Positions 30,879-48,297 of a stretch of DNA of 64,000 nt are shown piece by piece (positions within the stretch are counted from its first letter, which is position 1; each line of letters opens with the position of its first letter). The position numbers and the translations under genes were made by a program. The notes beneath the pieces were generated by a model, which searched no databases, was not told the DNA's origin, and saw nothing but the letters and a program-made list of their open reading frames with translations. The DNA is from Aequorivita lipolytica (GTDB lineage: Bacteria > Bacteroidota > Bacteroidia > Flavobacteriales > Flavobacteriaceae), in the NCBI RefSeq assembly GCF_007997135.1, contig NZ_VORU01000001.1, positions 248,001-312,000 on the forward strand. Reading direction: 5' to 3'.

Positions 30879-30927
30879 AAGCATCCAGCATCCAGCATCC
30901 AGCATCCAGCTTCTAACTTCAAACGTC
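30879..30927 (-). repeat. Heptamer array 1, upstream of cusA
   Basis: Seven-bp units of the NAGCTTC/NAGCATC type (complement of GAAGCTG) run in strict phase to the end TAACTTCAAACGTC. The array ends 8 bp before the cusA ATG, where a ribosome-binding site would be expected. Its end is nearly identical (18 of 19 bases, 30910-30928) to the end of array 2. Confidence 0.9.
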
Positions 30928-30935
30928 TATAAAAA

Positions 30936-33900
30936 ATGCTAAATAAAAGCATCAAATTTCTCATAGAAAACAAACTCGTCGCCGTTTTAATGCTCATCGT
31001 TTTTGTGGGTTTTGGAACTGTTTACGCACCTTTTAATTGGAACACGGGAATTTTGCCAAGTGACCCCGTAGCGGTCGATGCTATTCCGGATATTGGCGAA
31101 AACCAACAAATCGTATTTACGAAATGGGACGGTCGGTCACCACAGGATATTGAAGACCAAATTACTTATCCATTAACTACAAGCTTGTTGGGTATTCCTG
31201 GTGTGAAAACGATTCGTAGCTCTTCTATGTTCGGGTTTTCGAGTATCTATATCATTTTTGAAGAGGATATAGAGTTTTACTGGAGCCGAAGCCGCATCCT
31301 CGAAAAACTCAATTCCTTACCAAGTGGATTATTGCCCGAAGGCGTAAATCCTGCTTTAGGCCCAGATGCAACCGGTTTGGGACAAATATTCTGGTACACG
31401 CTTGAAGGTCGTGATAAAGATGGCAACGTTACGGGTGGTTGGGATTTACAAGAACTACGTAGCATTCAAGATTATTACGTGAAATATGCTTTGGCATCCG
31501 CAAGTGGCGTTTCGGAAGTGGCATCCATTGGTGGTTATGTAAAGGAATATCAAATTGATGTTAACCCTGAATTGATGCGGCAGTACAACATTAGCTTGGG
31601 CGCAGTGGTAAAAGCCGTAAAGGAAAGCAATAAAGACATTGGCGCACAGACGTTGGAAATCAACCAGGCAGAATATTTAGTGCGTGGCTTGGGCTATGTA
31701 AAATCTGTTGCGGATATTGAAAATGCTGTCGTAACATCTGAAAACTACACATCCATTACCATAAAAGACATCGCGAATGTTTCTTTAGGTCCTGCAGCTA
31801 GACGTGGCATTTTGGACAAAGAAGGAGCCGAAGTGGTTGGAGCTGTCGTGGTAGCAAGATATGGCGCGAATCCGATGGAGGTCATCAATAATGTGAAGGA
31901 AAAAATAAAGGAATTGAGCACAGGTTTGCCTTCCAAAATTTTGAGCGATGGTAGAACCTCACAGCTTACCATAGTTCCCTTTTACGACCGCACAGAACTC
32001 ATTCAAGAAACCTTGGGTACGCTAAATGAGGCATTGACACTGGAAATACTGATTACCATTCTTGTAATTATTGTGATGGTATTCAACCTTAAAGCATCTA
32101 TTCTTATATCGGGACTGTTACCCGTGGCAGTGTTGATGGTTTTTATCGCAATGAAGTTTTTTGGTGTTGATGCTAATATCGTTGCACTATCGGGAATTGC
32201 TATTGCAATTGGGACGATGGTGGACGTAGGAATTATCCTTTCGGAGAACATTATTCGGCATATTGATGAAGAAAATGAAAAGCTCGAAACTCGAAACTCG
32301 AAGCTGGAAGCTGGAAGCCAGAAGCTGGAGGTTCGAAGCCAGAAGCTGGAAGAGAGCGAATCCAGCCTCCAACTTCCAACTTCTAACTTCCAACGTCTTC
32401 CAATAAACAAAATCGTTTACAATGCCTCTGCCGAAGTTTCAGGAGCTATCGTTACGGCGGTGGCGACAACAATCATAAGTTTCATTCCGGTATTTACGAT
32501 GATTGGTGCAGAAGGAAAACTTTTCCGTCCCCTGGCATTTACCAAAACATTCGCACTTACAGCATCCATTATTATAGCCTTGTTTTTGATTCCACCCTTT
32601 GCGGCGTTTTTGTTCAAAAGTAGAAATATAAGAAAAAGCACAAATTATGGGATTGGCGGTTTATTGTTGGTTGCTGGCTTTGTTGCTGTAATATTCGGGC
32701 ATTGGATAGGTCTTATTTTGATCGGCTTTAGTTTTTTGGCCTTTGCGAAACTTCGTGGAAAGTGGTCTAAAGAACGCTCAAGCAAATACAGCATCTATCT
32801 TTCAGTGGCGGCTATTGTATTTCTGTTAGCGGAGTACTGGCGGCCATTGGGAGTTGATAAGAATGTTTTCTGGAATCTTATTTTCGTGAGCATTATCTGT
32901 TTTGGGCTGCTGGCAAGTTTTTCACTTTTCAAAAATTATTATTCCCGAATCCTTAAATGGGCGTTGGCAAACAGACTGTTATTTTTAACCATTCCCACAA
33001 CACTTTTAATCCTTGGTTTTATCATTTATAAAAATACAGGGAAAGAATTTATGCCATCCCTCAATGAAGGCTCATTTTTGTTGATGCCCACTTCGATGCC
33101 CCACGCAGGCGTTGAAGAAAACAAACGTGTATTGCAACAATTGGATATGGCAGTGGCGAGCATTCCCGAAATTGAAACCGTAGTTGGAAAATCAGGAAGG
33201 ACCGAATCCGCGCTCGACCCTGCCCCCTTATCGATGTATGAAAATATGATTCAGTATAAATCTGAATATATGTTGAATGATAAAGGCGAACGGCAACGCT
33301 ATAAAGTAAACGATGACGGATTTTTTATTCGAAAAGACAGTAGTCTGGTGGCCAATCCTAATACAGATGTCAGTTCGAGCGCAGTCGAGAACTATCGAAA
33401 AAACGGCCAAAAAGTTTCAATTACCGTTAATGAATCACCTAATAAACTGATTGCCGATGATGATGGCGAGTTCTTCAGAAATTGGCGTCCGGAAATCAAT
33501 TCCCCGGACGATATTTGGAATGAAATCATAAGAGTGACCAAACTTCCAGGCGTGACATCTGCCCCAAAATTGCAACCCATAGAAACCCGTTTGGTTATGT
33601 TGCAAACCGGAATGCGTGCGCCAATGGGTATAAAAGTTAAAGGGCAGGATTTAAAACAGATTGAAGCTTTTGGTCTCGAGCTTGAAAATATTTTGAAACA
33701 GGCCGAAGGCGTAAAACAGGAAGCCGTTTTCGCAGACCGCATCGTTGGAAAACCCTACCTTCTTATTGACATTAACAGGGAAAACCTGGCGCGTTACGGA
33801 GTTACCGTTGAAGAAGTTCAAAATGTACTTCAAGTTGCTGTAGGTGGAATGTCATTGACCCAGACCGTGGAAGGCAGGGAGCGTTACGGTGTTCGCATTC

Positions 33901-34814
33901 GTTACCCTAGGGAACTTCGTGCAGACCCTTCCGATTTGAAAAAGATTTACGTTCCTGTTGAAAAGGGCAGTCCTGTTCCGTTGAGCGAATTGGCAAGCAT
34001 TCGTTACGAGCAAGGTCCGCAAGTCATCAAAAGCGAAGATACTTTTTTGGTAGGCTATGTTTTATTCGACAAATTAGATGGCTTTGCGGAAGTAAACGTG
34101 GTTGAAACCGCCCAAGCGCTTATTCAGCAAAAAATTGATAATGGCGAATTAACAGTTCCCAAAGGCATCAGCTATAAATTCACGGGAACTTATGAAAATC
34201 AATTACGTGCCGAAAAAACGCTATCGGTTATTGTTCCTTTAGCCTTGTTGGTTATCTTCTTGATTCTCTATTTCCAGTTCCGTTCGGTTTCCACAACCTT
34301 TATGGTTTTTACAGGAATTGCAGTGGCCTTTGCAGGTGGTTTCGTGATGATTTGGTTTTATGGACAAGATTGGTTTTTGAATTTCAGTTTCTTTGGCGAA
34401 AACCTGCGAGATCTTTTCAATATAAAAACCATCAATTTGAGTGTGGCAGTCTGGGTAGGTTTTATTGCCCTTTTCGGGATTGCAACGGACGATGGTGTGG
34501 TAATGGCCACCTATCTGAAACAAACATTCGATAAAAATGATCCTACAGATATACAAGAAATTCGAAAATCTACTTTGGAAGCTGCTTCAAAACGAATCCG
34601 TCCTTGTTTGATGACCACGGTCACAACCATTTTGGCGCTCTTACCAGTTTTGACTTCCACCGGAAAAGGAAGTGATATTATGATACCGATGTCCATTCCC
34701 ATTTTCGGAGGAATGCTTTTGGACACAACCTCTTATTTTCTTGTACCAGTATTATATAGTTGGAAGAAGGAGCGCGCTGCGAAGAAAAAGATGAAGCTAG
34801 AAGCTGGAAACTAG
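30936..34814 (+). CDS. cusA: CusA/CzcA-family heavy-metal RND efflux pump
   Basis: A 1292-residue inner-membrane proton antiporter of the HME-RND family that exports Cu+/Ag+ or other divalent ions from periplasm and cytoplasm. Features include the N-terminal helix, FTKWDGRSPQDIEDQITYPL, GLGQIFWYTLEG, the transmembrane block with GIAIAIGTMVDVGIILSENI, and the C-terminal block FGIATDDGVVMATYLKQTF. It is longer than proteobacterial CusA (about 1050). Residues about 448-487 are encoded by a heptamer array, residues 812-819 by a dispersed element, and the last residues and stop codon by another heptamer array. Confidence 0.95.
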   Translation: MLNKSIKFLIENKLVAVLMLIVFVGFGTVYAPFNWNTGILPSDPVAVDAIPDIGENQQIVFTKWDGRSPQDIEDQITYPLTTSLLGIPGVKTIRSSSMFGFSSIYIIFEEDIEFYWSRSRILEKLNSLPSGLLPEGVNPALGPDATGLGQIFWYTLEGRDKDGNVTGGWDLQELRSIQDYYVKYALASASGVSEVASIGGYVKEYQIDVNPELMRQYNISLGAVVKAVKESNKDIGAQTLEINQAEYLVRGLGYVKSVADIENAVVTSENYTSITIKDIANVSLGPAARRGILDKEGAEVVGAVVVARYGANPMEVINNVKEKIKELSTGLPSKILSDGRTSQLTIVPFYDRTELIQETLGTLNEALTLEILITILVIIVMVFNLKASILISGLLPVAVLMVFIAMKFFGVDANIVALSGIAIAIGTMVDVGIILSENIIRHIDEENEKLETRNSKLEAGSQKLEVRSQKLEESESSLQLPTSNFQRLPINKIVYNASAEVSGAIVTAVATTIISFIPVFTMIGAEGKLFRPLAFTKTFALTASIIIALFLIPPFAAFLFKSRNIRKSTNYGIGGLLLVAGFVAVIFGHWIGLILIGFSFLAFAKLRGKWSKERSSKYSIYLSVAAIVFLLAEYWRPLGVDKNVFWNLIFVSIICFGLLASFSLFKNYYSRILKWALANRLLFLTIPTTLLILGFIIYKNTGKEFMPSLNEGSFLLMPTSMPHAGVEENKRVLQQLDMAVASIPEIETVVGKSGRTESALDPAPLSMYENMIQYKSEYMLNDKGERQRYKVNDDGFFIRKDSSLVANPNTDVSSSAVENYRKNGQKVSITVNESPNKLIADDDGEFFRNWRPEINSPDDIWNEIIRVTKLPGVTSAPKLQPIETRLVMLQTGMRAPMGIKVKGQDLKQIEAFGLELENILKQAEGVKQEAVFADRIVGKPYLLIDINRENLARYGVTVEEVQNVLQVAVGGMSLTQTVEGRERYGVRIRYPRELRADPSDLKKIYVPVEKGSPVPLSELASIRYEQGPQVIKSEDTFLVGYVLFDKLDGFAEVNVVETAQALIQQKIDNGELTVPKGISYKFTGTYENQLRAEKTLSVIVPLALLVIFLILYFQFRSVSTTFMVFTGIAVAFAGGFVMIWFYGQDWFLNFSFFGENLRDLFNIKTINLSVAVWVGFIALFGIATDDGVVMATYLKQTFDKNDPTDIQEIRKSTLEAASKRIRPCLMTTVTTILALLPVLTSTGKGSDIMIPMSIPIFGGMLLDTTSYFLVPVLYSWKKERAAKKKMKLEAGN
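32279..32397. repeat. Heptamer array 2, inverted pair inside cusA
   Basis: A plus-oriented arm of eleven units (32279-32355, GAAGCTG/GAAGCCA/GAGGTTC) is followed by a minus-oriented arm of five units (32363-32397). CTGGA / TCCAG close the turn, so the mRNA can fold into a hairpin. It is in frame and yields a Lys/Leu/Glu/Ser-rich cytoplasmic loop. Confidence 0.9.
33369..33392. repeat. Dispersed element inside cusA
   Basis: GTCAGTTCGAGCGCAGTCGA, the complementary orientation of the TTCGACT-GCTCAG family, is read in frame as VSSSAVEN. It is nearly identical to the copy at 55698. Confidence 0.7.
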
Positions 34815-34857
34815 AGGCTAGAGGTTAGAAGCTGGAAGCTAGAAATTAGATGCTGAA
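34793..34857 (+). repeat. Heptamer array 3, cusA 3' end / left of four-helix-bundle gene
   Basis: Nine 7-bp units in strict phase (GAAGCTA, GAAGCTG, GAAACTA, GAGGCTA, GAGGTTA and others). The cusA stop codon TAG (34812-34814) falls inside, so the array encodes the pump's last residues (KLEAGN). Confidence 0.95.
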
Positions 34858-34892
34858 TTTTGAAAAAGGAATATAAATTAAAACTCAATATT

Positions 34893-35255
34893 ATGATTAA
34901 GACATTTACGGATTTAGATATTTATAATGATTCATATCAATTGGCAATGGAAGTTTTTTGGCTATCAAGAAAATTCCCAAAAGAGGAGGTTTATTCATTG
35001 ACTTCACAAATGGTAAGGTCATCCCGGTCGGTAGCAGCGAATATTTCCGAAGGTTGGTCTAAAAGAAATTACGAGCAAATATTTAAACAGCAATTAATTA
35101 CATCTTTAGGTTCAAATGGGGAAACGGAGACTTGGTTGGATTTTGCGAAGGATTGTAATTATTTGGATGAAAAAACGCATTTGGATTTAATCAATAAGAA
35201 TTCTGAAATCGGCAAAAAGATTAATCGTTTGCATCAGACCTGGAAAACTTTTTAG
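34893..35255 (+). CDS. Four-helix bundle protein (23S rRNA IVP/S23 type)
   Basis: 120 residues from the ATG at 34893; an in-frame codon at 34860 sits against the array. The family pattern is clear: DLDIYNDSYQLAMEVFWLSR, FPKEEVYSLTSQMVRSSRSV, AANISEGWSKRNYEQIF and EIGKKINRLHQTW. Relatives are encoded in 23S rRNA intervening sequences and resemble Avd, the accessory protein of diversity-generating retroelements; their biochemical role is unclear. The gene has no metal-related feature and is framed by two direct heptamer arrays, 35 bp and 2 bp away, so it looks like an inserted cassette between cusA and cusC. Confidence 0.88.
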   Translation: MIKTFTDLDIYNDSYQLAMEVFWLSRKFPKEEVYSLTSQMVRSSRSVAANISEGWSKRNYEQIFKQQLITSLGSNGETETWLDFAKDCNYLDEKTHLDLINKNSEIGKKINRLHQTWKTF

Positions 35256-35256
35256 T

Positions 35257-35335
35257 GATGCTGGAGGCTGGAAGCCAGAAGTTAGATACTGGAGGCTGGA
35301 AGTTAGATGCTAGATGCTAGAGGCTTGAAATTGGA
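35257..35335 (+). repeat. Heptamer array 4, right of four-helix-bundle gene
   Basis: Eleven units in strict 7-bp phase (GATGCTG, GAGGCTG, GAAGCCA, GAAGTTA, GATACTG and others). The last segment GGCTTGAAATTGGATAA (35322-35338) matches the end of array 6 at 15 of 17 bases. Confidence 0.95.
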
Positions 35336-35354
35336 TAAAAAAAATATTATTATT

Positions 35355-36815
35355 ATGACAACTCAAAGAATATTTAGAAGTTTATGTTATCTATTAAAGA
35401 ATGTAGATTTTAATTTTATTACGGCTTTTCAGAGATATAGACTTGCTATTGATTTTTCGAAATACAAAACTACAGACTCTAACTTCATTGAAAGAGATAA
35501 TCAATCCAGTTTCCAGCTTCTAGCATCTGGCTTCCAATTTACAAAATCTTCCAACTTCCAGCTTCCAGCTTCCAGCTTCAATTGTTCTAACTTCCAACTT
35601 CTAGCTTCTAGCCTCATCCTATTCCTAATATTCAGTATTTCAGCCCAATCTCAAAACTTACAAACCTACATAGACGAAGCCATTTCCAACAGTCCGGAAA
35701 TTCAAAAATTTCAGTTGCGATATGATATTTCTTCTGAAAAGGTCAACGAAGCCAATTGGATTCCCAATACCGAAGTGAGCGCAGGGTATTTTGTGAGTGA
35801 ACCTGAAACACGTGTGGGAGCGCAACGCGCCCGGTTTTCTGTAAAACAAATGTTGCCTTGGTTTGGCACTATCACTGCAAGGGAAAATTATGCATCTTCA
35901 ATGGCTGATGCCGATTACGTGGAAGTTACGATTGCAAAACGCAAGCTTGCACTTTCAGTATCCCAATTCTACTATCAACTTTATGAAATAAGGGCAAAAC
36001 AGCTTGTACTTGACCAAAACATTGAGCTGCTTCAAACTTATGAACGCCTTGCGCTCACTTCCGTGGAAGTGGGTAAGGCATCTGCGGTGGACGTATTGCG
36101 ATTACAGATTAGACAAAATGAACTGCAACAGGAAAAAGAAGTGCTAACCCAACAGTCAAAGGGCATTCAGGCGGCTATGAACAGTTTATTGAACCGCAAT
36201 TATGATAAGGATATTACGGTAGTTGACAGTTTAGATATGCCGATGGAAGATATGCAACTATCATTTGATTCACTTTCGCTAAATCCAGAATTGCTGAAAT
36301 ATGACAAGCTTTATGAATCTGTAACACAATCTGAATTGCTCAATCTGCGTGAAGCCCAGCCTATGTTTGGTTTCGGGTTGGATTACATTCCCGTTTCTGA
36401 ACGAACGGATATGAATATGATAGATAACGGTAAAGACATTGTAATGCCGATGTTTTCAATCACAATTCCCATTTTCAATAATCGCTATAAATCCATTACA
36501 AAACAGAATGATTTACGCCAACAGGAGATCCAATCCCAAAAAGATGAACGGTTAAATATGTTGGAGTCAGATTTGGCCAGAACCATATCACAGCGTAACC
36601 AAGCACGGATAAAATTCAACACCCAACAGAAAAATCTTGAACAGGCCGAGCAAGCCGAAGAAATATTAATCAAAAATTATGAAACGGGGACTATTGATTT
36701 CAATGATGTGTTGGACATTCAGGAATTGCAATTGAAATTTCAACTTCAGCAAATCGAAGCCTTGAAAAATTATTATGTGCAGTCCGCTGTCATCAATTAT
36801 TTAACCAACTCATAG
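35355..36815 (+). CDS. cusC: CusC/TolC-like outer membrane efflux protein, altered N-terminus
   Basis: Outer-membrane factor of the efflux system, up to 486 residues. The conserved body starts near NLQTYIDEAISNSPEIQKF and contains the two long coiled-coil repeats of the family (LDQNIELLQTYERLALTSVEVG, NLEQAEQAEEILIKNYETG). The start is uncertain: the ATG at 35355 gives some 85 residues before the hydrophobic stretch LILFLIFSISAQ that should be the signal-peptide core, and an ATG at 35307 lies inside a heptamer array. Most of this extra N-terminus is translated array DNA. The native start codon may have been lost, so export of the product is in doubt. Confidence 0.8.
   Translation: MTTQRIFRSLCYLLKNVDFNFITAFQRYRLAIDFSKYKTTDSNFIERDNQSSFQLLASGFQFTKSSNFQLPASSFNCSNFQLLASSLILFLIFSISAQSQNLQTYIDEAISNSPEIQKFQLRYDISSEKVNEANWIPNTEVSAGYFVSEPETRVGAQRARFSVKQMLPWFGTITARENYASSMADADYVEVTIAKRKLALSVSQFYYQLYEIRAKQLVLDQNIELLQTYERLALTSVEVGKASAVDVLRLQIRQNELQQEKEVLTQQSKGIQAAMNSLLNRNYDKDITVVDSLDMPMEDMQLSFDSLSLNPELLKYDKLYESVTQSELLNLREAQPMFGFGLDYIPVSERTDMNMIDNGKDIVMPMFSITIPIFNNRYKSITKQNDLRQQEIQSQKDERLNMLESDLARTISQRNQARIKFNTQQKNLEQAEQAEEILIKNYETGTIDFNDVLDIQELQLKFQLQQIEALKNYYVQSAVINYLTNS
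35507..35615 (-). repeat. Heptamer array 5 inside the cusC N-terminus
   Basis: About fourteen units of CAGCTTC/CAACTTC/TAGCTTC type, opposite in orientation to array 4, with two breaks of phase. It is read in frame as a Ser/Phe/Leu-rich stretch directly before the signal-peptide core of CusC. Confidence 0.88.
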
Positions 36816-36839
36816 GTTGATTTAAAAAAATTATCAAAA

Positions 36840-39209
36840 ATGAAAAAGATAAAATACATATCACTGCTTATTATAATGGGATGCCAAACCATTTTTGGTC
36901 AAAACATTTATGAGCAGTCCCAGGAAGGAAACAATGAAAATCTACCAGTTCACGAATACACATTGACCATCAAGGAAGAAATGGTAAATAAAGCTGGAAA
37001 GGAAGTAAAAGGAATGACCGTAAACGGCACTATTCCAGGTCCGATCTTGGAATTTACGGAAGGAGAATATGCGGTTATTTATGTAAAAAATGAAATGAGC
37101 GTAGAAACATCTGTCCATTGGCACGGAATTTTGCTGCCCAATTTTCAGGATGGTGTTCCCTATTTAACCACGCCCCCCATTCGCCCCGGAGAAACCTTTA
37201 AATATGAATTTCCAATAAAACAGGCAGGCACCTATTGGTATCATTCACATACAATGTTGCAGGAACAAAGTGGTGTTTTTGGTTCTCTTGTTATAAACCC
37301 CAAAGAAAAAAACTTGGATTATGACAAAGATTTGGTGTTGATGCTTTCAGACTGGACAAATGAAAAACCAATGAATGTATTACGAAACCTGAAACGTGGC
37401 AACGAGTGGTACGGAATGAAAAAAGGAACGTCCACACCTTTAAACCAAGTAATTGCCCGTGGCGCATTTGATGCACAGCTCGACTTTTGGAGACAACGAA
37501 TGGAAGGTGCTGACATAGCAGATATTTATTACCCAGCCTTTTTGGTAAATGGACAACAACAGCCAGAATATCGCAGTTTTAAAGCAGGAGAAAAAGTGAG
37601 GTTGCGAATCATAAATGGTTCGGCATCTACCCAATTCTGGATGACTTTTGGTGGAGAAATGCCCACATTGGTTTCTGCCGATGGACTCAATGTTGAACCT
37701 GTACAAAAGAACAAAACGTTTATTGCTGTTGCGGAAACCTATGATTTTATAGTTACTATTCCACAAAATGGTAAGATTGAGTTCAGGGCAATGGCACAGG
37801 ACGGTTCTGGTACTGCCACTGCATTTATTGGAAACGGCAAAGTGCTTCCCGCGGAAGTAGTTGCCAAACCCGATAAAATAAAAATGATGCAGCAAATGGC
37901 AAAAATGAAGATGAAGATGGGTGCACACGCCTTAAAATTCCAACCAAAAAAAGATGAACGTTTTGAAATGAAAGAGGAATACGGAATGAATATGGGCGAA
38001 ATGAAAATGAATCACGAAGAGAATAAAATGGATATGCCAAAAGATTCAACGATGAATGAAAAGATGGACCATTCAAAAATGGATCATTCAAAGATGAATA
38101 TGGATATGCCCAAAGATTCAAAAATGAAGATGGATGATATGAAAATGGAACATTCTGAAATGAAAGGTATGCAGATGGACAGTATGGAAGGAATGGATAT
38201 GTTTTCAGAATATAATTACGATTACTTGAAGTCGCCTGAAAAAACAACCTATGACAAAACTATTCCGGTTAAGGAAATCTTACTGAACCTCACTGGTAAT
38301 ATGAATCGCTATATCTGGAGTATGAACGGAGTGCCACTTTCGGAAACCGACCAGATTAAAATAAACCATAAAGAGGTCACGCGAATAACGTTGAACAATC
38401 TCACGATGATGCACCACCCAATGCACTTGCACGGACACTTTTTTAGGGTTATTAACAAGAACGGCGAATATTCGCCATTGAAACATACCGTTAATGTGCC
38501 ACCGATGCAGGAAGTTACGATTGAATTTTATGGGAACGAGTATGGCGATTGGTTCTTTCATTGCCACGTTCTGTACCATATGATGAGCGGTATGGCAAGG
38601 GTTTTCAGTTATGACACACCGCGGGACGACCGTTTAAAAGGTTACCCCATAAGCGGTTTGATTACCGAAGCTGATAAATATTATACCTGGGCTATGGTAG
38701 ATGTTGCATCGCATATGGCCGAGCTGAATTTTACAACTTCCAACATTCGTAATCAGTTCAATGTAATGGCAGAATACGGATGGAACAAAAACCTTGAAGC
38801 CGAAGTAACCTACGAACGCTATCTGCACGATTATTTGAGGGTCTTTGGTGGTGTTAACATTGAAAACGAACTGGAAGATAGTTTGGATGAGCTTTCAACC
38901 ACGGCAATTGCAGGAGTTCGATTTTTAACACCATACCTCTTTAATCTTGATGTACGCATAGATAGCAAATTGCGGCCGCAAATCAGTTTAAGTCGCGAAA
39001 TCTTGATTTTCCCACGAACAGCCATTTTCGGAAGTTATGAATATCAAGCAGATTTCGGATGGGTGAATGACCTTCCTGCGGGAGATAATTTCGCAAACGA
39101 AGTCACCTGGAATGCAGGTGTCGAATATTTTTTATCACGAAACTTTTCATTGATGGCAAGCTACGATAACCGTTTTGGTGCTGGTGGCGGACTATCAATA
39201 AGATTCTAA
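36840..39209 (+). CDS. Multicopper oxidase fused to CopB-like outer-membrane barrel
   Basis: A 789-residue protein. It has a signal peptide, then cupredoxin domains with all copper motifs: HWHG (about 94), WYHSHT (about 134), HHPMHLHGHFF (about 524) and HCHVLYHMMSGM (about 574). Residues about 345-455 are very rich in Met/His/Asp, as in CopA/PcoA copper oxidases, and would bind Cu(I). After about residue 600 the chain changes to an amphipathic beta pattern (YTWAMVDVASHMAELNF, VEYFLSRNFSLMASYDNRFG) that resembles CopB/PcoB, normally a separate outer-membrane protein. It is likely to oxidise Cu(I) to Cu(II) in the periplasm. Confidence 0.88.
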   Translation: MKKIKYISLLIIMGCQTIFGQNIYEQSQEGNNENLPVHEYTLTIKEEMVNKAGKEVKGMTVNGTIPGPILEFTEGEYAVIYVKNEMSVETSVHWHGILLPNFQDGVPYLTTPPIRPGETFKYEFPIKQAGTYWYHSHTMLQEQSGVFGSLVINPKEKNLDYDKDLVLMLSDWTNEKPMNVLRNLKRGNEWYGMKKGTSTPLNQVIARGAFDAQLDFWRQRMEGADIADIYYPAFLVNGQQQPEYRSFKAGEKVRLRIINGSASTQFWMTFGGEMPTLVSADGLNVEPVQKNKTFIAVAETYDFIVTIPQNGKIEFRAMAQDGSGTATAFIGNGKVLPAEVVAKPDKIKMMQQMAKMKMKMGAHALKFQPKKDERFEMKEEYGMNMGEMKMNHEENKMDMPKDSTMNEKMDHSKMDHSKMNMDMPKDSKMKMDDMKMEHSEMKGMQMDSMEGMDMFSEYNYDYLKSPEKTTYDKTIPVKEILLNLTGNMNRYIWSMNGVPLSETDQIKINHKEVTRITLNNLTMMHHPMHLHGHFFRVINKNGEYSPLKHTVNVPPMQEVTIEFYGNEYGDWFFHCHVLYHMMSGMARVFSYDTPRDDRLKGYPISGLITEADKYYTWAMVDVASHMAELNFTTSNIRNQFNVMAEYGWNKNLEAEVTYERYLHDYLRVFGGVNIENELEDSLDELSTTAIAGVRFLTPYLFNLDVRIDSKLRPQISLSREILIFPRTAIFGSYEYQADFGWVNDLPAGDNFANEVTWNAGVEYFLSRNFSLMASYDNRFGAGGGLSIRF

Positions 39210-39247: not shown

Positions 39248-39862
39248 ATGAAAAACATGAAAACAATAGTAAAAACTCTAATGGTTATTGCTTTAGTCGG
39301 TACAGTGGTTAGCTGTAAGTCGACCTTCAATGCTGCCAAAGCAATGGAAACTCAGGAAAATCGTAATGCGCTATATCAAGAAATTATTACGAGCCCAAGC
39401 CAATTCAGTGAATTTATAAACCTAGCACAACAAGATGAAGGGGCAAGAACGTTAATGATGCAGAACCATATGCAAATGATGGAATCTGGAAATATGAAAA
39501 TGATGATGGAAAAAAATCCCGAAATGAAAGAAAAAATGCAATCCCATATGCAGATGATGATGGAAAAAAATCCGGAAATGATGCAAAATATGCAATCCAA
39601 AATGCAGATGATGATGGAAAAAAACCCTGAAATGATGCAAAAGATGCAATCAAAAATGCTCGATAAAATGATGGGGAGTGAAATGGGTCGTAAAATGCTA
39701 ATGGATACAATCCACAACAACAAAATGATGAAAAATGAGATGAAAGAAAAAATGATGCAAATGATGGATGAAAATCCTGAAATGATGGAAGAAATGATGC
39801 AGAAAATAATGGAAAAAAACCCTGAAATGATGCAGAAAATGAAAATGAAAAGGAAAATTTAA
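39248..39862 (+). CDS. Met-rich repeat lipoprotein A
   Basis: A 204-residue protein with a lipoprotein signal (VIALVGTVVSC) and a body in which about a third of residues are methionine. The unit MQMMMEKNPEM recurs with variants four to five times. The pre-repeat segment (TQENRNALYQEIITSPSQF) resembles that of the Met-rich protein at 42495, so the two are paralogues. Met-rich periplasmic proteins bind Cu(I), and the context supports a copper sink or chaperone. An alternative start lies three codons downstream. I recognise no named family. Confidence 0.75.
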   Translation: MKNMKTIVKTLMVIALVGTVVSCKSTFNAAKAMETQENRNALYQEIITSPSQFSEFINLAQQDEGARTLMMQNHMQMMESGNMKMMMEKNPEMKEKMQSHMQMMMEKNPEMMQNMQSKMQMMMEKNPEMMQKMQSKMLDKMMGSEMGRKMLMDTIHNNKMMKNEMKEKMMQMMDENPEMMEEMMQKIMEKNPEMMQKMKMKRKI

Positions 39863-39974: not shown

Positions 39975-40655
39975 ATGAAAAAAGTAAGAGTAACAACAGC
40001 AATTCTGGCAATGGCTTTTTTAAGCCTAACAGTAATGTCTTGTAGAGACACTAAAAAGGAAGAAGTGAACGACTCTATGAATTCCGAAATGCAGGAAGAG
40101 GGTCATCAGGATGATTCAATGATGGATAACGATAATTCAATGATGGACCACAATGATTCAATAATGGATCACGATAGTTCTATGATGAACCACTACAATA
40201 TGGATAATAATAGGATGGGTTCCAATATGCAGAACGCTGATGCCAAACAAGTAGTAGCAGATTATATGACGCTTAAAGATGCCTTGGTAGCGACCAATAA
40301 AGAGGATGCTGCAAAAGCTGGGAAAAAATTGGTAAGCACTTTGAACGGTTTTAATGTTAGCAGCTATACATCAGAACAACAAAAAGAATTGAAGGACATT
40401 ATCGCAGATGCAAAGGAACACGCAGAACATATTGGCAAAAGTGAAATGGACCACCAACGCGAACATTTCAAGACCTTGAGTAAAGATATTATGGATTTGG
40501 TTGCCATAACCGGCACGGAAACTACTTTATACCAACAGTTTTGCCCAATGTACGATGGTGGCAGTGCGTGGTTAAGTATGAACAAAGAAGTTAAAAACCC
40601 ATATTACGGCAGTAAAATGCTGAACTGCGGAAAAGTGCAAAAGGAGATAAATTAG
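39975..40655 (+). CDS. DUF3347 lipoprotein with Met/Asp-rich linker
   Basis: 226 residues from the ATG at 39975 (an upstream codon at 39930 lacks a proper signal). Lipoprotein signal ending VMSC, then a linker rich in Asp/Met/Ser/His ([20 protein letters not shown]), then a DUF3347 domain ending [20 protein letters not shown] and [10 protein letters not shown]. The same domain forms the C-terminus of CusB in this island. DUF3347 proteins occur with copper-export systems. Periplasmic metal binding is inferred. Confidence 0.82.
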
Positions 40656-40712
40656 AGGCTGAAATCTGGAAGCTGGAAGCTAGATGCTGGATGCTGGATG
40701 CTTGAAGTTGGA
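40655..40712 (+). repeat. Heptamer array 6
   Basis: Eight to nine units (GAGGCTG, GAAGCTG, GATGCTG) directly after the DUF3347 stop, beginning on its last base. The end TGCTTGAAGTTGGATAA (40699-40715) matches the end of array 4. A large palindrome follows at once. Confidence 0.92.
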
Positions 40713-40713
40713 T

Positions 40714-40783
40714 AACCTGCAAGGCGCGTCGTGCTGAGCCTGCCGAAGTATGTTGCCGAGGCACGAGGCAACCTTGTAGGTTT
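40714..40783. repeat. Palindromic AACCT...AGGTT element with nested repeat
   Basis: Outer arms AACCTGCAAGG (40714-40724) and CCTTGTAGGTTT (40772-40783) enclose a TTGCC-GAGGCACGA-GGCAA core. A copy of the TTCGACT-GCTCAG family (TGCTGAGCCTGCCGAAGTA, about 40731-40750) lies inside. It can fold on either strand and may act as a terminator. Confidence 0.75.
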
Positions 40784-41574: not shown

Positions 41575-41575
41575 C

Positions 41576-42133: not shown

Positions 42134-42175
42134 GGAATATCCTAGGTTGTACTAATAAAGCTGGGTTGGGAAAAC

Positions 42176-42183: not shown

Positions 42184-42211
42184 TGTTATAATCATTTAAA
42201 AACTAAAATTA

Positions 42212-42442
42212 ATGACACACACGTATAATGTAAAAGGAATGAGTTGCGGAGGCTGTAAAGCATCTGTGGAAAAGTTCTTGGGTAACGTGGAAAATGTTAC
42301 CAATGTTTCTGTAAACCTTGAAAAAGCGGAAGCCGAAGTTACAATGAGCAGCCACGTTGCTACAGAAACCTTAAAAAGAGCCTTGCCGGAAAAATTTATC
42401 CTATCGGAAAAGGTACAGGAGAAATCAAAAAGTCAACAGTAA
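42212..42442 (+). CDS. copZ: Copper chaperone CopZ-like (HMA domain)
   Basis: A 76-residue protein, one HMA domain with GMSCGGCKASVE (Cys12, Cys15) and the family end. It carries Cu(I) to the CopA ATPase in the cytoplasm. It is preceded by its own promoter box. Confidence 0.9.
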   Translation: MTHTYNVKGMSCGGCKASVEKFLGNVENVTNVSVNLEKAEAEVTMSSHVATETLKRALPEKFILSEKVQEKSKSQQ

Positions 42443-42494
42443 AACATAATCAAGGCAACAAAACAGCATATTAGTAACCTTAAAATTAAACAGT

Positions 42495-42959
42495 ATGAAA
42501 ACATTAGTAATTTTTTTATCAATAGTAGGCTTGATGGCATTTAATAGTTGCAAGCAAGAACCAAACGTTCAAGCAATGCTTGAAAATACAGAAACAAGAA
42601 ATGAGATTATGCAAACAATTACCAATAATCCCGATTTTATGACCGAATTTATGGAGCATATGCAAAACAATAATAATGCAATGCAAATGATGCAGGGTAA
42701 CAAAAAAATGATGGGCTCCATGATGCAAGGAGAAGGAATGCAAATGATGATGACGGATAGTACAATGATGCACTCAATGATGAATGGAATGATGAACGAT
42801 GGCAAAACCATGGAAACAATGATGAAAATGATGCACGAAAAAGGTATGATGACCGAAGATTGTATGCAATCCTGTATGCAAATGATGGATGGAATAGAAG
42901 TGGAAGTGAAGAACGGGAGCGATTCAAAAATGATGGAGGGGAATAAAGATCACCATTAA
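42495..42959 (+). CDS. Met-rich lipoprotein B
   Basis: A 154-residue protein with a lipoprotein signal (FLSIVGLMAFNSC) and a Met/Asn/Gly-rich body (MMGSMMQGEGMQMMMTDSTM) that ends in a His pair. The pre-repeat stretch (ENTETRNEIMQTITNNPDF) is like that of Met-rich lipoprotein A, so both come from one ancestor. One Cys-containing motif, CMQSCMQMM, adds a possible metal site. Periplasmic Cu(I) binding is inferred. It lies 4 bp before the DUF5676 gene. Confidence 0.75.
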   Translation: MKTLVIFLSIVGLMAFNSCKQEPNVQAMLENTETRNEIMQTITNNPDFMTEFMEHMQNNNNAMQMMQGNKKMMGSMMQGEGMQMMMTDSTMMHSMMNGMMNDGKTMETMMKMMHEKGMMTEDCMQSCMQMMDGIEVEVKNGSDSKMMEGNKDHH

Positions 42960-42963
42960 AATT

Positions 42964-43233
42964 ATGAAACTAAACATCAAAAAGTTAGGATTTGCCATAG
43001 GCATTACTGGAGCATTGCTTTATTTGGGATGTATTGTGATAATGCTTACAGTTGGACACGAAGGTTCGGTAAAATTCTTCAACAGTTTATTGCACGGACT
43101 CGATGTTTCAACCATAATGAGAATGGATATCCCACTTTGGGAAGCTGGTTTGGGTATTATTCAAACGTTCATTCTGGGTTGGTTGGTAGGTGCTTGCATC
43201 GCATCACTGTATAATTGGCAAATTAAAAAATAA
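42964..43233 (+). CDS. DUF5676 membrane protein
   Basis: An 89-residue protein with two transmembrane helices (about 8-30 and 60-82) and the motif ITGALLYLGCIVIML. It fits the DUF5676 family common in copper islands. It starts 4 bp after Met-rich lipoprotein B. Function unknown. Confidence 0.75.
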   Translation: MKLNIKKLGFAIGITGALLYLGCIVIMLTVGHEGSVKFFNSLLHGLDVSTIMRMDIPLWEAGLGIIQTFILGWLVGACIASLYNWQIKK

Positions 43234-43238
43234 TTAAA

Positions 43239-44072
43239 ATGAAGAATATATTAGTACCCACAGACTTTTCAGATAATTGCAACAAAGCAGCAAAGTTGGC
43301 TATTGAATTGGCAGCACTTTTTAATTCAGAGATCCATTTTTTGCATCAACTCAATACACCTGTAAATTGGGTAAAACTCGATAAAACGGAGGAACATAAT
43401 TATCCTAAAACCGTTGCAGAAATAGGCGTTGCCAAAAGCAAATTGAGGGCTTTGGACATAGAGGCGGAACACAAAGGATTGAAATCCAGAACTTTTTTGG
43501 AATTTGTGTCAGATGATGAAGCAATTACTGCACATTCCCAAAATTTTCATCACGATTTTATTATTACGGGAAGCAAAGGCGTACGAAAGGGATTTTTAGA
43601 TCAATTGTTGGGAAGCAATGCCCAAAAAATCATTCGGAATGCACGAGTGCCTATTTTGGTAGTAAAGGAAGATACAGTAACATTTCCATTCAAAAATATC
43701 GTGTTCGTGTCCGATTTTAAGGAAGACATTTCTACTGCTTTCGAAGGGATTGTGAATATAGCTGAAAAATGCAATGCAAAAATCCATTTGCTGAACATCA
43801 ACACAGCATCAGATTTTAATAGTGTTGAAAATGGGTTGCAATCAATCAAGGATTTTTCAAAGCACTTCCCAAAACTGGAAAACTATGAAATGCACGTTTA
43901 TAACGAACCTAACGTACTAAGTGGCATTGAAAAATTTGAAGATTCCAATGATGCGGATTTAATAGTAATGTACACCCACAGCAGAAAGGGACTGTCAAGT
44001 ATATTTTCAAAAAGTATTGCTGAAAATGTAACAAACCATTCAAAAAAACCTGTGATGACCGTTCACCTTTAA
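43239..44072 (+). CDS. Universal stress protein, two tandem domains
   Basis: A 277-residue protein with an N-terminal UspA domain (NILVPTDFSDNCNKAAKLAIELA, ending GSNAQKIIRNARVPILVVK) and a second, weaker UspA domain (KNIVFVSDFKEDISTAFEGI to the end). The nucleotide-binding signature ITGSKGVRKG is present in the first. Tandem Usp proteins are common in flavobacteria. It starts a run of tightly spaced genes (1-6 bp gaps) up to copA. Confidence 0.9.
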   Translation: MKNILVPTDFSDNCNKAAKLAIELAALFNSEIHFLHQLNTPVNWVKLDKTEEHNYPKTVAEIGVAKSKLRALDIEAEHKGLKSRTFLEFVSDDEAITAHSQNFHHDFIITGSKGVRKGFLDQLLGSNAQKIIRNARVPILVVKEDTVTFPFKNIVFVSDFKEDISTAFEGIVNIAEKCNAKIHLLNINTASDFNSVENGLQSIKDFSKHFPKLENYEMHVYNEPNVLSGIEKFEDSNDADLIVMYTHSRKGLSSIFSKSIAENVTNHSKKPVMTVHL

Positions 44073-44073
44073 A

Positions 44074-44913
44074 ATGGAAAAAACAGTCAATATCATAAAG
44101 TATTCTGGCGAAGTTGAAGCCTTCGATATAGAAAAGTTAAAACACTCTTTGAGACAATCAAAAGCGAGTGAGAAACTTGTTGCTGAAATCGCCCAAGAAA
44201 TCCAAACACGGTTGACTGAAGGGATGACAACCAAGCATATTTACGAAATGGCTTATAAGATATTGAAGCGCAAATCAAAATCAGGCTCTGCCCGATACAA
44301 ACTTAAAAAAGCTATTATGGAGTTGGGTCCTACTGGCTTTCCTTTTGAAAAATTCATCGGAAAAATACTTGAATATGAAGGTTTCAAAACGGAAGTAGGT
44401 GTTGTAATGCAAGGCCATTGCGTAACCCACGAGGTAGATGTATCGGCTTTGAAAGCGAATGACCATTATTTAGTGGAGTGTAAATTCCATATTGACCAAG
44501 GTAGTATTTGCAATGTGAGAATTCCGCTTTACATACAGTCACGGTATAAGGATTTGGAAACACAATGGTTAAAACAAAAGGATCATTCCGGCAAATTTCA
44601 TAAAGGTTGGATATATACAAACACAAGGTTTTCATCCGATGCTATAAAGTTCGGCGAATGTGCAGGACTTGGATTGGTAAGTTGGGATTATCCCGAACAA
44701 AACAGCCTTAAAAATAAAATTGACTCGTCAAGATTATACCCACTTACAGCCTTATCATCATTGAGCAAAAAAGGAAAAATAAAGATTTTAAATAAAGGCA
44801 TTGTGTTATGCAGGGAAATATGTGATACCCCAACCTTATTGGATGATTTAGGTATTACGGCATCTAAAAAGAAAAGCATTTTAGAAGAAGCGAATGAATT
44901 ATGTAACCATTAA
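44074..44913 (+). CDS. ATP-cone domain fused to Mrr-like restriction endonuclease
   Basis: A 279-residue protein. Residues 1-90 are an ATP-cone regulatory domain (IIKYSGEVEAFDIEKLKHSL, MTTKHIYEMAYKIL). Residues about 95-230 are a PD-(D/E)xK nuclease of Mrr type with Asp122 (HEVDVSA) and Glu135-x-Lys137 (VECKFH). It would be a nucleotide-controlled DNA nuclease. A nuclease inside a copper operon is odd; it lies between the Usp gene and the ATPase with gaps of 1 and 6 bp, so it is transcribed with them. No methylase is present. Confidence 0.85.
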   Translation: MEKTVNIIKYSGEVEAFDIEKLKHSLRQSKASEKLVAEIAQEIQTRLTEGMTTKHIYEMAYKILKRKSKSGSARYKLKKAIMELGPTGFPFEKFIGKILEYEGFKTEVGVVMQGHCVTHEVDVSALKANDHYLVECKFHIDQGSICNVRIPLYIQSRYKDLETQWLKQKDHSGKFHKGWIYTNTRFSSDAIKFGECAGLGLVSWDYPEQNSLKNKIDSSRLYPLTALSSLSKKGKIKILNKGIVLCREICDTPTLLDDLGITASKKKSILEEANELCNH

Positions 44914-44919
44914 AATAAA

Positions 44920-45471
44920 ATGAAGAATAGCGAAACCGCACAAACCAATTGGTATGTCATAACGGGTGGCCCGAGTACTGGTAAAACTACCACTATTAAT
45001 ATGCTGAACGATCGAGGCTTTAAAACCACCATAGAACACGCAAGGCATTACATAGACACAATGCGTGTTGAGGGACAAACCGTTGAGGAATTGCGAAGTA
45101 ATAAGCGGGAATTCCAACTTGGTGTGCTAAAAATGCAAATTGAACAGGAAGCATCCCTAAATTCAGACGACGTTGTATTTCTGGACAGGGCAATCCCAGA
45201 TGCATTGGCATATTATCGATTTTTAGGTTTGGAAGTTGACGAAATTTTAAAAAAGGCAATGAGCAATGTGAATTACAAAAAGATTTTCATTTTGGACAAA
45301 TTGCCTTTGGTTAATGATTATGCTCGACTGGAAAGCAAAAATGACCAAAAACAAATACATAATTTTATTACCGAAGTTTATGAATCCTTATCTTTTCCAG
45401 TAATTCACGTGCCAGTATTACCACCATTGGAACGTGTGGATTTTATATTGAAAAGTATTAAAGACAATTAA
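44920..45471 (+). CDS. P-loop ATPase/kinase (AAA_28, NadR-like)
   Basis: A 183-residue protein with Walker A GGPSTGKTT (16-24) and a Walker-B like VVFLDRAIPDALAYY, of the AAA_28/NadR-like nucleoside kinase group. It probably phosphorylates a small nucleoside-like molecule. It starts six bases after the nuclease gene and ends one base before copy 2 of the PRPP-synthetase-like gene. Confidence 0.8.
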   Translation: MKNSETAQTNWYVITGGPSTGKTTTINMLNDRGFKTTIEHARHYIDTMRVEGQTVEELRSNKREFQLGVLKMQIEQEASLNSDDVVFLDRAIPDALAYYRFLGLEVDEILKKAMSNVNYKKIFILDKLPLVNDYARLESKNDQKQIHNFITEVYESLSFPVIHVPVLPPLERVDFILKSIKDN

Positions 45472-45472
45472 A

Positions 45473-45766
45473 ATGGAAAATTACGACACTCTTTCAACAA
45501 CTATGGAGCAATTGCAAAAGCAAGGCTACACCTATGATTTTAATTTATGTTCAGGGCATATAGAATGTAATGCACTAAAACTAAAAATACACCCAGAAGA
45601 TTTCGAAGTTGATGAGATCCATCGTTTCGAAGGAATGAGCAGCACAGACGATAATAGTGTGCTGTATGCCATTCATTCTAAAAAAGGGATTAAAGGTTTG
45701 TTGGTAGATGCCTATGGCGTATATGCCGAAAATATTTCGGAAGCAATGAGAAAAAAATTAAGATAA
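45473..45766 (+). CDS. Small 'phosphoribosylpyrophosphate synthetase'-type protein, copy 2
   Basis: A 97-residue protein, 80 of 97 residues identical by my count to the one at 41281. The copies bracket the block from HMA-AraC to the P-loop ATPase. Duplication within the island is the simplest explanation. It starts one base after the ATPase gene and ends two bases before copA. Function unknown. Confidence 0.75.
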   Translation: MENYDTLSTTMEQLQKQGYTYDFNLCSGHIECNALKLKIHPEDFEVDEIHRFEGMSSTDDNSVLYAIHSKKGIKGLLVDAYGVYAENISEAMRKKLR

Positions 45767-45768
45767 TT

Positions 45769-48297
45769 ATGAAACACACCTATCACATACACGGAATGAC
45801 CTGCAACGGATGCAGAAGCCACGTAGAAAAAACACTTTCTGAAGTAGAAGGTGTTACAAATGCAGCTGTCGATTTGGAAAAAGAGGAAGCTACTATCGAA
45901 ATGGACAAACATATTCCTCTCGAAAAATTTCAAGAAGCTTTAAAAAATGATGGCGATCGCTATAGTATTCATAATCTTGGCGAACATACTCATTCTTCTG
46001 AAAAGACAGAAACAAAATCAAATTCTTCCAACCTCCAACCTCCAACTTCCAGCCTTGGTACAGGCACTTTCTATTGCCCAATGCACTGCGAAGGCGACAA
46101 AACCTACGACAAACCAGGCGATTGCCCAGTTTGTGGAATGGATTTGGTAGAAGAGCAAAACCTATCGGCAACCACTTCAGAACAATGGACTTGCCCAATG
46201 CATCCAGAAATTGTAGAGGACGAACCTGGAGCTTGCCCTATTTGCGGAATGGATTTGGTGCCTATGGAACCCGACCAGTCTGCAGAGGAGAAAACATATA
46301 AAAAACTATTGAAGAAATTCTGGATAGCGGTTGCATTTACCGTTCCGATTTTTCTGATAGCAATGAGCGAAATGATTCCTAATAATCCGTTATATAGTGT
46401 TTTGGAACAAAAAGGATGGAACTGGATTCAGTTTGGTTTATCGATTCCCGTGGTGTTTTATGCCACGTGGATGTTCTTTGAACGTGCCTATCGCAGTATA
46501 AAAACGTGGAATCTTAATATGTTCACATTAATAGGAATCGGAGCTGGCGTCGCTTGGCTGTTCGGTGTTTTTGGGATGTTGTTTCCAGATTTCTTTCCCG
46601 TACAGTTTAAAACCGAATCTGGCGCAGTCCACGTTTATTTTGAAGCGGCAACCGTAATTCTCACTTTGGTATTAATGGGACAAGTTTTGGAAGCGCGCGC
46701 CCATAGTAAAACCAATTCAGCAGTAAAAGAATTACTAAAACTCGCACCGAATAAAGCCGTGCGAGTTGTTGATGGCAACGAAGAAGAAGTTAGTATTGAC
46801 AAAATTCAAAAAGGAGATATTCTGCGGGTAAAACCAGGCGATAAAATTCCTGTGGATGGCGTTATTACCGAAGGACATACCACGGTTGATGAATCGATGA
46901 TTTCAGGAGAACCTATTCCGGTTGATAAAATTGAAGATGACAAAGTAAGTAGCGGAACCATCAACGGCAATCAATCTTTTTTAATGAAAGCCGAAAAAGT
47001 AGGTAGCGATACGCTACTTTCCCAAATAATAAAAATGGTAAACGATGCCAGCCGCAGTCGTGCACCTATTCAGAAATTAGCAGATACGGTTTCAGGTTAT
47101 TTCGTTCCAGTTGTGGTAATAATATCTTTGATCACATTTGCCGTTTGGGCAATTTGGGGCCCAGAACCTGCGTATGTATTTGCGTTGGTCAATGCCATTG
47201 CGGTTTTAATTATTGCCTGTCCGTGTGCTTTGGGATTGGCAACACCAATGTCCATAATGGTTGGCGTTGGAAAAGGAGCCCAAAATGGCGTCCTTATCAA
47301 AAATGCTGAAGCCCTTGAGAAATTGGATAAAGTAGATACACTCATCATAGATAAAACAGGAACCATTACTGAAGGGAAACCAACGGTTGAAAAAATAGGC
47401 GTTTTCGGTGCAAATTTTTCTGAGAGCGAAATACTGAAATTCATCGCATCCCTAAACAGTTCCAGCGAACATCCGCTTGCAGAAGCCACTGTAAAATATG
47501 GCAAAGAACAGAAAACCCAAATCTCAAAAACCGAAAACTTCAGCGCAGTAACCGGTAAAGGGGTAGAAGGTACAGTTGATGGTAAAAAACTCGATTTAGG
47601 AAATGCCAAAATGATGGAATATGCAAAAGCTACTATTTCTTCAGAAATGGAAACCGAAGCACGATCCTTTCAAAAACAAGGCAAAACAGTTTCCTATTTA
47701 TCAATAGATAGCGAAGTTTCAGGCTACGTCGTTATCGGAGATAAAATAAAAGAAACAAGTGCCAAAGCCATTAAAGAACTTCAAGATAAAGGAATTGCCG
47801 TAATTATGCTTACGGGCGATAATCACGACACCGCTCAAGCCGTAGCCAGCGAACTGAACCTTGCCGACTTTAAAGCGGGAATGTTACCGGAAGACAAACT
47901 GAAGGAAGTAACAAAATTACAGCAACAAGGCAAAGTGGTAGCAATGGCTGGCGATGGCATTAACGATGCACCAGCACTTGCCAAGAGTGATGTAGGTATC
48001 GCAATGGGAACAGGAACCGATGTCGCTATTGAGAGTGCAATGATCACCTTAGTAAAAGGCGATTTACACGGAATTGTAAAAGCAAAAAACTTGAGTCACG
48101 CCGTAATGAGAAATATCAAGCAAAATCTATTTTTTGCATTGATCTACAATACACTTGGCATTCCAATCGCTGCAGGGGTTTTATTTCCATTTTTCGGAAT
48201 ACTCTTATCGCCTATGATTGCAGCATTGGCAATGAGTTTTAGCTCTGTATCGGTAATTGCAAACGCATTGAGATTAAAATCAAAAGCAATCAACTAA
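45769..48297 (+). CDS. copA: Copper-translocating P-type ATPase CopA
   Basis: An 842-residue P1B-type ATPase that exports Cu(I). Order: HMA domain with Cys12/Cys15 (GMTCNGC); two copies of the heavy-metal-binding motif (CPMH...GDCPVCGMDL near 103-127, CPMHPE...GACPICGMDL near 143-168); transmembrane block; CPC metal site Cys484-Pro-Cys486; phosphorylated Asp528 in DKTGT; GDGINDAP near the C-terminus. The linker between HMA and the first metal motif (SNSSNLQPPTSSLG) is encoded by a heptamer array. It follows copy 2 by two bases. Confidence 0.96.
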   Translation: MKHTYHIHGMTCNGCRSHVEKTLSEVEGVTNAAVDLEKEEATIEMDKHIPLEKFQEALKNDGDRYSIHNLGEHTHSSEKTETKSNSSNLQPPTSSLGTGTFYCPMHCEGDKTYDKPGDCPVCGMDLVEEQNLSATTSEQWTCPMHPEIVEDEPGACPICGMDLVPMEPDQSAEEKTYKKLLKKFWIAVAFTVPIFLIAMSEMIPNNPLYSVLEQKGWNWIQFGLSIPVVFYATWMFFERAYRSIKTWNLNMFTLIGIGAGVAWLFGVFGMLFPDFFPVQFKTESGAVHVYFEAATVILTLVLMGQVLEARAHSKTNSAVKELLKLAPNKAVRVVDGNEEEVSIDKIQKGDILRVKPGDKIPVDGVITEGHTTVDESMISGEPIPVDKIEDDKVSSGTINGNQSFLMKAEKVGSDTLLSQIIKMVNDASRSRAPIQKLADTVSGYFVPVVVIISLITFAVWAIWGPEPAYVFALVNAIAVLIIACPCALGLATPMSIMVGVGKGAQNGVLIKNAEALEKLDKVDTLIIDKTGTITEGKPTVEKIGVFGANFSESEILKFIASLNSSSEHPLAEATVKYGKEQKTQISKTENFSAVTGKGVEGTVDGKKLDLGNAKMMEYAKATISSEMETEARSFQKQGKTVSYLSIDSEVSGYVVIGDKIKETSAKAIKELQDKGIAVIMLTGDNHDTAQAVASELNLADFKAGMLPEDKLKEVTKLQQQGKVVAMAGDGINDAPALAKSDVGIAMGTGTDVAIESAMITLVKGDLHGIVKAKNLSHAVMRNIKQNLFFALIYNTLGIPIAAGVLFPFFGILLSPMIAALAMSFSSVSVIANALRLKSKAIN
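46025..46056 (-). repeat. Heptamer array 7, inside copA
   Basis: Four units (CAACCTC twice, CAACTTC, CAGCCTT), opposite in orientation to arrays 3 and 4, are read in frame as the linker between the HMA domain and the first metal-binding motif of CopA. The short array keeps the reading frame. Confidence 0.85.

Follow-up and report, generated by a model that had tools for sequence, protein, structure and literature searches.

Oriented AG-heptad arrays flank IVP/S23p genes: a cassette in an Aequorivita lipolytica metal island and its possible reading as a ring-protein site

The window analyzed here is a 64,000-nucleotide stretch of the Aequorivita lipolytica genome (contig NZ_VORU01000001.1, positions 248,001 to 312,000, forward strand), numbered from its first letter. 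Its metal island contains seven arrays of a degenerate seven-base unit (heptad) of the GAAGCTG type, and between the arrays at 34793 and 35257 sits a gene for an IVP/S23p four-helix-bundle protein. The original prediction, which presented the arrays as a new repeat family, was silent on this gene and on the rule of AG every seven bases described below. The layout is that of a cassette (AG heptads, IVP gene, inverted CT heptads) placed between genes of the same strand. In the window, the cassette spans 34793-35615 and lies between cusA and tolC. The names cusA, tolC, and copA used for window genes are ones we presume from their protein sequences. Pfam profiles were run on the window genes, and the gene 5′ of the 40655 array was identified as DUF3347 (PF11827). 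The features are as follows.

30879..30928, minus strand: solo heptad array with an RG chain of 5, just 5′ of cusA (unit block 30886-30920)
30936..34814, plus strand: RND efflux gene, cusA type (PF00873, E 3.6e-183), with an in-frame array insert and its 3′ end in an array
32280..32403: in-frame heptad insert in the CusA loop, with a plus-strand arm (32280-32355, unit block 32300-32348) and a minus-strand arm (32363-32398, unit block 32363-32390)
34793..34855, plus strand: upstream arm of the IVP cassette, made of AG heptads with an RG chain of 8, overlapping the cusA 3′ end
34893..35255, plus strand: IVP/S23p four-helix-bundle gene (PF05635, E 7.9e-32, 110.1 bits against a cut-off of 33.8)
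35257..35338, plus strand: second AG-heptad array, RG chain of 9, abutting the IVP stop codon (unit block 35257-35333)
35307..36815, plus strand: outer membrane efflux gene, tolC type (PF02321, E 2.6e-39), start region fused to the array
35507..35615, minus strand: inverted (CT) heptad arm in three blocks of four units each, longest RG chain 5
40655..40716, plus strand: solo heptad array with an RG chain of 5, inserted 3′ of the DUF3347 gene (unit block 40655-40710)
45769-48297: heavy-metal P-type ATPase gene, with a heptad array between the HMA domain and the metal-binding domains
46025..46056, minus strand: short heptad array, in frame in the heavy-metal P-type ATPase gene (unit block 46029-46049)

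The two AG arrays around the IVP gene have the same orientation, and the CT arm is read as coding for part of the extended N terminus of the TolC-type protein. The gene does not lie within 23S rRNA. An AlphaFold model of the monomer had a pLDDT of 95.6, and the best PDB entries among the matches listed were 2gsc and 2rld (Foldseek TMq 0.84-0.90 to the 2gsc chains), each of which contains five chains. The 2gsc protein has been described as a homopentamer toroid (PMC4990558). By analogy, the window IVP is probably a small ring-forming protein. Avd came next at E 0.09 (4dwl_D at rank 11 and 8ub8_D at rank 15 among the best 50 of 450 rows). The genome of the window (3.31 Mb, 47 contigs) has 21 IVP matches, and several of these copies look decayed because 8 contain an internal stop.

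Arrays were called as at least three units of GA[ATG][AG][CT][CT][AG]. All seven predicted arrays were recovered in their places, in seven-base phase and with differing units, compared to a mean of 0.02 arrays of at least three units per 64 kb when the window was simulated 50 times with a first-order Markov model. Among 64 phased island units, position 1 was G in 63 and position 2 was A in all 64 (127 of 128 letters), and positions 3 to 7 varied. The model used to delimit most blocks requires GA, so for the GAAGCTG word this fixed GA core is partly built in. The predicted bias toward transitions was borne out (69 transitions versus 23 transversions between neighboring units). So was the argument that simple slippage into identical units does not account for everything, as 24 distinct units were found among the 64. 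The array ends that had been read as the defined ends of an element fared less well. The quoted matches are there (18 of 19 and 15 of 17 bases), but the best internal matches between pairs of island arrays were just as good (14 to 19 of 19 for 19-mers and 14 to 17 of 17 for 17-mers). The shared ends are therefore not distinctive, and shared termini as element ends were rejected.

The arrangement around the window gene recurs at other IVP genes. We compiled 147 IVP loci with flanks of 130 bases, comprising 80 named loci, 39 more, and a further 28. The 80 were the best of 569 for a query built from IVPs beside fadA, and the 39 were those of a 49-locus set with a frame of at least 105 residues (L075 was left out). 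In the 49-locus lag analysis, minus-strand loci were left unturned, which does not affect lag and inverted-match counts; they were turned in later analyses. The flanks of the 49 loci matched themselves at lag 7 with z values of 18.4 and 15.3, and an excess was also seen at lags 14 and 21, compared to a z of -1.9 at lag 7 for control stretches about 1 kb away. For the 80 named loci the lag-7 values were 23.1 and 19.8, with the far control itself raised to 8.2.

What recurs is mainly one dinucleotide. Among all dinucleotides compared in 119 loci, AG was the most frequent to form period-7 chains upstream (76 loci; the next, GA, 32), and CT downstream (69 loci; the next, TC, 37); the far control showed these chains in 0 and 3 of 80 loci. 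Four AGs at period 7 were found upstream in 96 of the 147 loci and, as CT, downstream in 82, compared to 6 and 5 loci at period 8 and 0 or 1 at periods 5, 6, 9, and 10. Chains on the wrong strand were rare (12 and 2 of 119 loci; 1 and 0 of 28). Altogether, 110 of the 147 loci had a chain of at least four on the expected strand, AG upstream or CT downstream, whereas only 8 of 189 intergenic gaps of the window's own genome had one on either strand. The consensus unit of the upstream arms was K-AG-W-W-N-T, with the base preceding AG being G in 187, T in 176, A in 110, and C in 33 cases. The words themselves were locus specific, and the two arms of a cassette were mutually inverted. In 100 deduplicated loci, the longest chain had a mode of five on both sides: four, five, and six AGs in 14, 30, and 13 loci upstream, and four, five, and six CTs in 15, 33, and 4 loci downstream. 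Among IVP loci on plasmids from cyanobacteria, Azospirillum, and Gemmatirosa (12 of 31 records with IVP were sampled), 9 of 12 had RG chains of at least four on each side, a count made without a control; Gemmatirosa was among the three that failed, and L307 looked doubtful by eye. A few IVP loci (L065, L069, L074, and L111) had period-8 arms by eye (GTGARTNN, GTTANNNN).

The cassettes sit between genes. A same-strand gene started within 400 bases downstream of 146 of the 147 IVP loci, compared to 158 of 210 control open reading frames. The downstream genes fell into 49 groups, the largest of which, identified by sequence as fadA, accounted for 58 loci, a share that is biased because the query came from IVPs beside fadA. 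On a quick IVP tree, examined without a shuffled control, the fadA/other label required 16 changes. The junction names fadB, fadA, paaA-paaB, sdhA-sdhB, hisH-hisA, and carA-carB are what we take these genes to be from their protein sequences. The junction 5′ of fadA was read by eye at 28 of 30 loci (L260 and L275 excluded). In the genus of the window, some species had an IVP with arms there, and others lacked the IVP but had arms of 7 or 8 bases; the window's own genome was of the latter kind. Four other species of the genus (L251, L255, L257, and L259) carried a GC-rich palindromic repeat, GCCCC(T/A)CCC...GGGGAG...CTCCCC...GGGGGC, and the junction was empty in two relatives outside the genus (L276 and L277).

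Two further settings were noted. On three cyanobacterial plasmids (L306, L309, and L312), the IVP lies inside CRISPR operons, as annotated, in the cas6/cas4 interval on two and in the cas10/cmr3-family interval on one. A Flavobacterium columnare table lists a four helix bundle protein between the guanylate kinase and nicotinate-nucleotide adenylyltransferase genes (PMC5524665), which is another IVP between protein genes.

Comparison with relatives supported the claim that several of the island arrays were inserted. First, the array in the CusA loop corresponds to 38 codons in frame, and 21 of 29 relatives had a short loop at this place. One relative (L080) had a heptad insert at the same site with arms in both orientations, and seven had other material (L079, L086, L090, L093, L095, L104, and L107); in the first five of these, from other genera, it was by eye a repeat-like in-frame insert of the ATTCCGA...GAG.GAG...GAACGAGC...GAGGAATCT type. 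Second, in the cusA operon comparison, for which 20 of 200 relatives matching a CusA stretch were fetched, 16 of 20 had no insert between cusA and tolC, and the tolC-type gene followed closely behind cusA. An IVP match was found at this junction in L148 and L149, an IVP-like gene was seen by eye in L151, and L155 retained arms around an IVP with an apparent internal deletion. The window and L149 had cassette words of the GAAGCTG type there, and L148 and L155 had words of the AAAAGTG type. Third, compared to L154, in which the site after the DUF3347 gene is empty, the 40655 array amounts to about 55 inserted bases. The 30879..30928 array had no counterpart among the 13 relatives compared, and the 46025..46056 array was not seen in the P-type ATPase N termini of 10 relatives.

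Several other repeats were seen in these genes. In six relatives that are IVP free at the cusA-tolC junction (L153, L157, L159, L164, L165, and L166), the signal-peptide codons of the TolC-type protein are short heptad repeats, and AAAAGTG-type arrays occur inside cusA away from the window's loop site in L155 (10583-10621) and L166 (14663-14700). Longer-period tandem repeats unrelated to the heptads lie in metal-island genes at 38028-38164, 39491-39659, 39746-39858, and 40105-40193.

The unit is not confined to the island, as had been claimed. The same word was present on contigs C8, C27, C30, and C45, and an island-specific family was rejected. The window's own genome had 87 overlapping three-unit matches of the island unit, compared to 13 for a reversed-pattern control. 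C30 and C27 carried near-perfect arrays of the slippage type (GAGGCTA x11, and GATGTTG-GAAGCTG alternating), and several arrays adjoined arrays of other seven-base words. The window itself has two such words (AGTTAAA at 13783-13826 and ATTGAAC at 13848-13893). Regions of this genome picked around arrays contained 37 period-7 arrays, compared to 0 to 6 for periods 4 to 6 and 8 to 13. In an unbiased 400 kb, 13 matches of five AGs were found at period 7, compared to 0 to 2 at periods 5, 6, and 8 to 11; a count by plain self-similarity, in contrast, gave 8 arrays for period 7 and 8 for period 8. Across genomes, a KAG-heptad pattern was detected in 73 of 232 genomes with an IVP and in 2 of 64 without (P = 2e-7, kinship ignored), and four GADRYYR units were detected in 20 of 69 relatives with an IVP and in 0 of 30 without.

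Any reading of the arrays has to account for the cassette association, the seven-base phase, the orientation, the intergenic position, the empty sites, and the mode of five. We give somewhat less than an even chance to the reading that the arrays are arms of IVP cassettes or solo copies of them, the arms being putative sites for an IVP pentamer with one heptad per subunit, in the manner of TRAP. The arrays would then belong to a widespread class with a fixed AG or GG core, a variable remainder, and seven-base spacing, and the remaining island arrays would be solo copies of the cassette word at permissive sites. Each arm would bind an IVP homopentamer and wrap around the ring as (G/U)AG repeats wrap around TRAP. 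By marking the arm, either in RNA or in single-stranded DNA, the IVP may regulate the mRNA that encodes it or govern how the cassette is copied. If binding is selected for and slippage goes in steps of seven, the words would drift without loss of core and phase. The ratio of one heptad to one subunit is suggested by the mode of five heptads and the five chains of each solved ring. The broader proposal, that IVP/S23p proteins are pentameric rings reading five NAG heptads in RNA or single-stranded DNA and that this is why long bacterial repeats frequently have a seven-base unit, is more doubtful.

A number of observations weigh against the ring-site reading. First, no AG/CT chain was found at 37 of the 147 IVP loci, the step from four to five AGs was modest (P = 0.011 and 0.007), and the AG arms of the window exceed five, with chains of 8 and 9. 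Second, solo arrays are common: the unbiased 400 kb has 13 matches of five AGs (some overlapping in one array), and the only IVP of that sample lies about 4.5 kb from the nearest of them. An inverted partner within 700 bases was found for only 2 of 18 sites with five AGs (window included), both of them self-palindromic words. Third, the reversed KAG pattern matched 55 of 296 genomes (53 with an IVP and 2 without), so the genome search supports a period of 7 without supporting the AG core. Fourth, within the genus, no relation between IVP number and GADRYYR matches was visible by eye; for example, G026 has 21 IVPs and 2 matches, and G017 has 17 IVPs and none. Finally, one Bacteroidota genome, G520, had 42 KAG-heptad matches but no PF05635 match at E ≤ 0.001. 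Searches of G520 and G585 with the bAvd profile and for weak IVPs gave nothing over threshold, although the bAvd search matched no control genome either. The G520 heptads may reflect recent IVP loss, an assembly gap, or some other cause of heptads.

Some of these observations favor another explanation, that the arrays are ordinary heptanucleotide simple sequence repeats in which polymerase slippage favors seven-base units and point mutation blurs them, with IVP genes merely lying in gaps that collect repeats. The frequency of solo arrays and the IVP-free G520 arrays agree with it, as do the near-perfect arrays that this word forms on other contigs and the transition-rich changes of the island, which resemble ordinary mutation. 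Heptamers have also been reported as the commonest repeat category in most genomes, and an explanation by polymerase contact has been put forward (PMC4679880). We nevertheless consider it unlikely, since it leaves unexplained why AG chains lie upstream and CT chains downstream of IVP genes and are rarely reversed, why AG is the preferred core, and why chains are present at three-quarters of IVP loci but in few gaps.

No better placed, in our estimate, is selection for an RNA stem, by which the arms would pair as a hairpin around the IVP message, as in RNase III-cut rRNA intervening sequences, and the heptads would be incidental. The arms are indeed inverted, and arms of one locus resembled each other more than arms of different loci at the same junction (17.2 versus 12.5; 0 of 20,000 permutations in 43 loci). 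Seven-base repeats between cyanobacterial hupS and hupL have also been called hairpin forming (PMC2670836). However, G·U pairs were not in excess over A·C mismatches (74:104 in the matched and 192:269 in the mismatched comparison), and the hairpin register was not the best one (identity of 0.535 at offset 0 compared to 0.579 at -1 and 0.583 at -2). Outside the core, arms of one locus had identities of 0.42 to 0.58 over seven registers, compared to 0.36 to 0.41 between loci. The words shared within a locus, together with the failed stem tests, fit a pair of similar sites better than a stem under selection.

It is less probable still that the arrays are targets, preexisting heptads at permissive sites that IVP genes or other repeats enter. 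Unrelated repeats do occupy the CusA loop, and likewise the junction 5′ of fadA, in different relatives, and IVP-free arms were seen by eye at the fadA junction in species of the window's genus, but targeting alone explains neither the opposite strands of the two sides nor the mode of five. Lastly, a dedicated template-based, retroelement-like diversification, as the original prediction had suggested, is highly improbable: the IVP model does bear a distant structural resemblance to Avd of diversity-generating retroelements, but the bAvd profile scored 28 bits on the window IVP against a cut-off of 40, neighboring units of IVP arms differed by 245 transitions and 806 transversions with no narrow class of change, and no evidence of such a process was found (a reverse transcriptase was not searched for).

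The association of oriented heptads with IVP genes is strong enough to merit a bench test. A structure of S23p/IVP has been public since 2006, with no function given in the literature examined, and for the frequent seven-base repeats of bacteria a cause, polymerase slippage, has been no more than suggested. With an oriented heptad-IVP association and an arm mode equal to the number of ring subunits, both questions can be tested with one protein and short oligonucleotides. Annotation would gain as well, since array sequence is translated into portions of the CusA, TolC, and CopA type proteins of the window. If the broader proposal is true, cassettes armed with AG heptads have spread between operon genes in Bacteroidota, cyanobacteria, and proteobacteria, and solo arrays of the STRR, GGGAATC, and GAAGCTG types would be sites bound in trans or remains of cassettes.

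Published heptad families include STRR of cyanobacteria, GGGAATC of Xanthomonas, and TAACTGA of Beggiatoaceae and Bacteroidetes (PMC2670836, PMC4692102, PMC4679880). These resemble the arrays described here in having seven-base units, a mostly intergenic position, some conserved positions, and inverted arrangements. To call the family undescribed was thus too strong, since heptamer repeats have been published for Bacteroidetes, cyanobacteria, and Xanthomonas (PMC4679880, PMC4692102). Neither PMC4692102 nor PMC4679880 uses the terms "S23" or "four helix" in its main text, and no link of these repeats to an S23p gene was seen. No paper linking S23p genes between protein genes to flanking heptad arrays was found among the matches listed, with subscription journals and preprints lying outside the search.

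Two other systems bear on the proposed function. In TRAP, 11 GAG or UAG repeats serve 11 subunits, with the RNA wound round the ring (PMC3913778). The likeness is that of a ring protein with AG repeats, which the IVP would bind by analogy. TRAP differs in its fold, and the IVP would have five subunits and four spacer bases compared to 2 or 3 in TRAP; no TRAP was present among the best 50 of 450 Foldseek matches. Avd of diversity-generating retroelements is a distant fold relative (4dwl and 8ub8, chain D), a resemblance already published for PF05635 (PMC10053308), and the window IVP falls below the bAvd cut-off.

The 23S rRNA intervening sequences of Coxiella and Leptospira, small elements with an IVP gene, encode the same protein family. 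The cassettes described here are unlike them in lying between protein genes and having heptad arms on both sides. Heptamer repeats and S23p intervening sequences were each known before, and the literature examined joins them only in one rRNA case. There, two or three GACAGAT heptamers and a GACAGAA precede the S23p gene (PMC4990558), and these heptamers fit an AG every seven bases.

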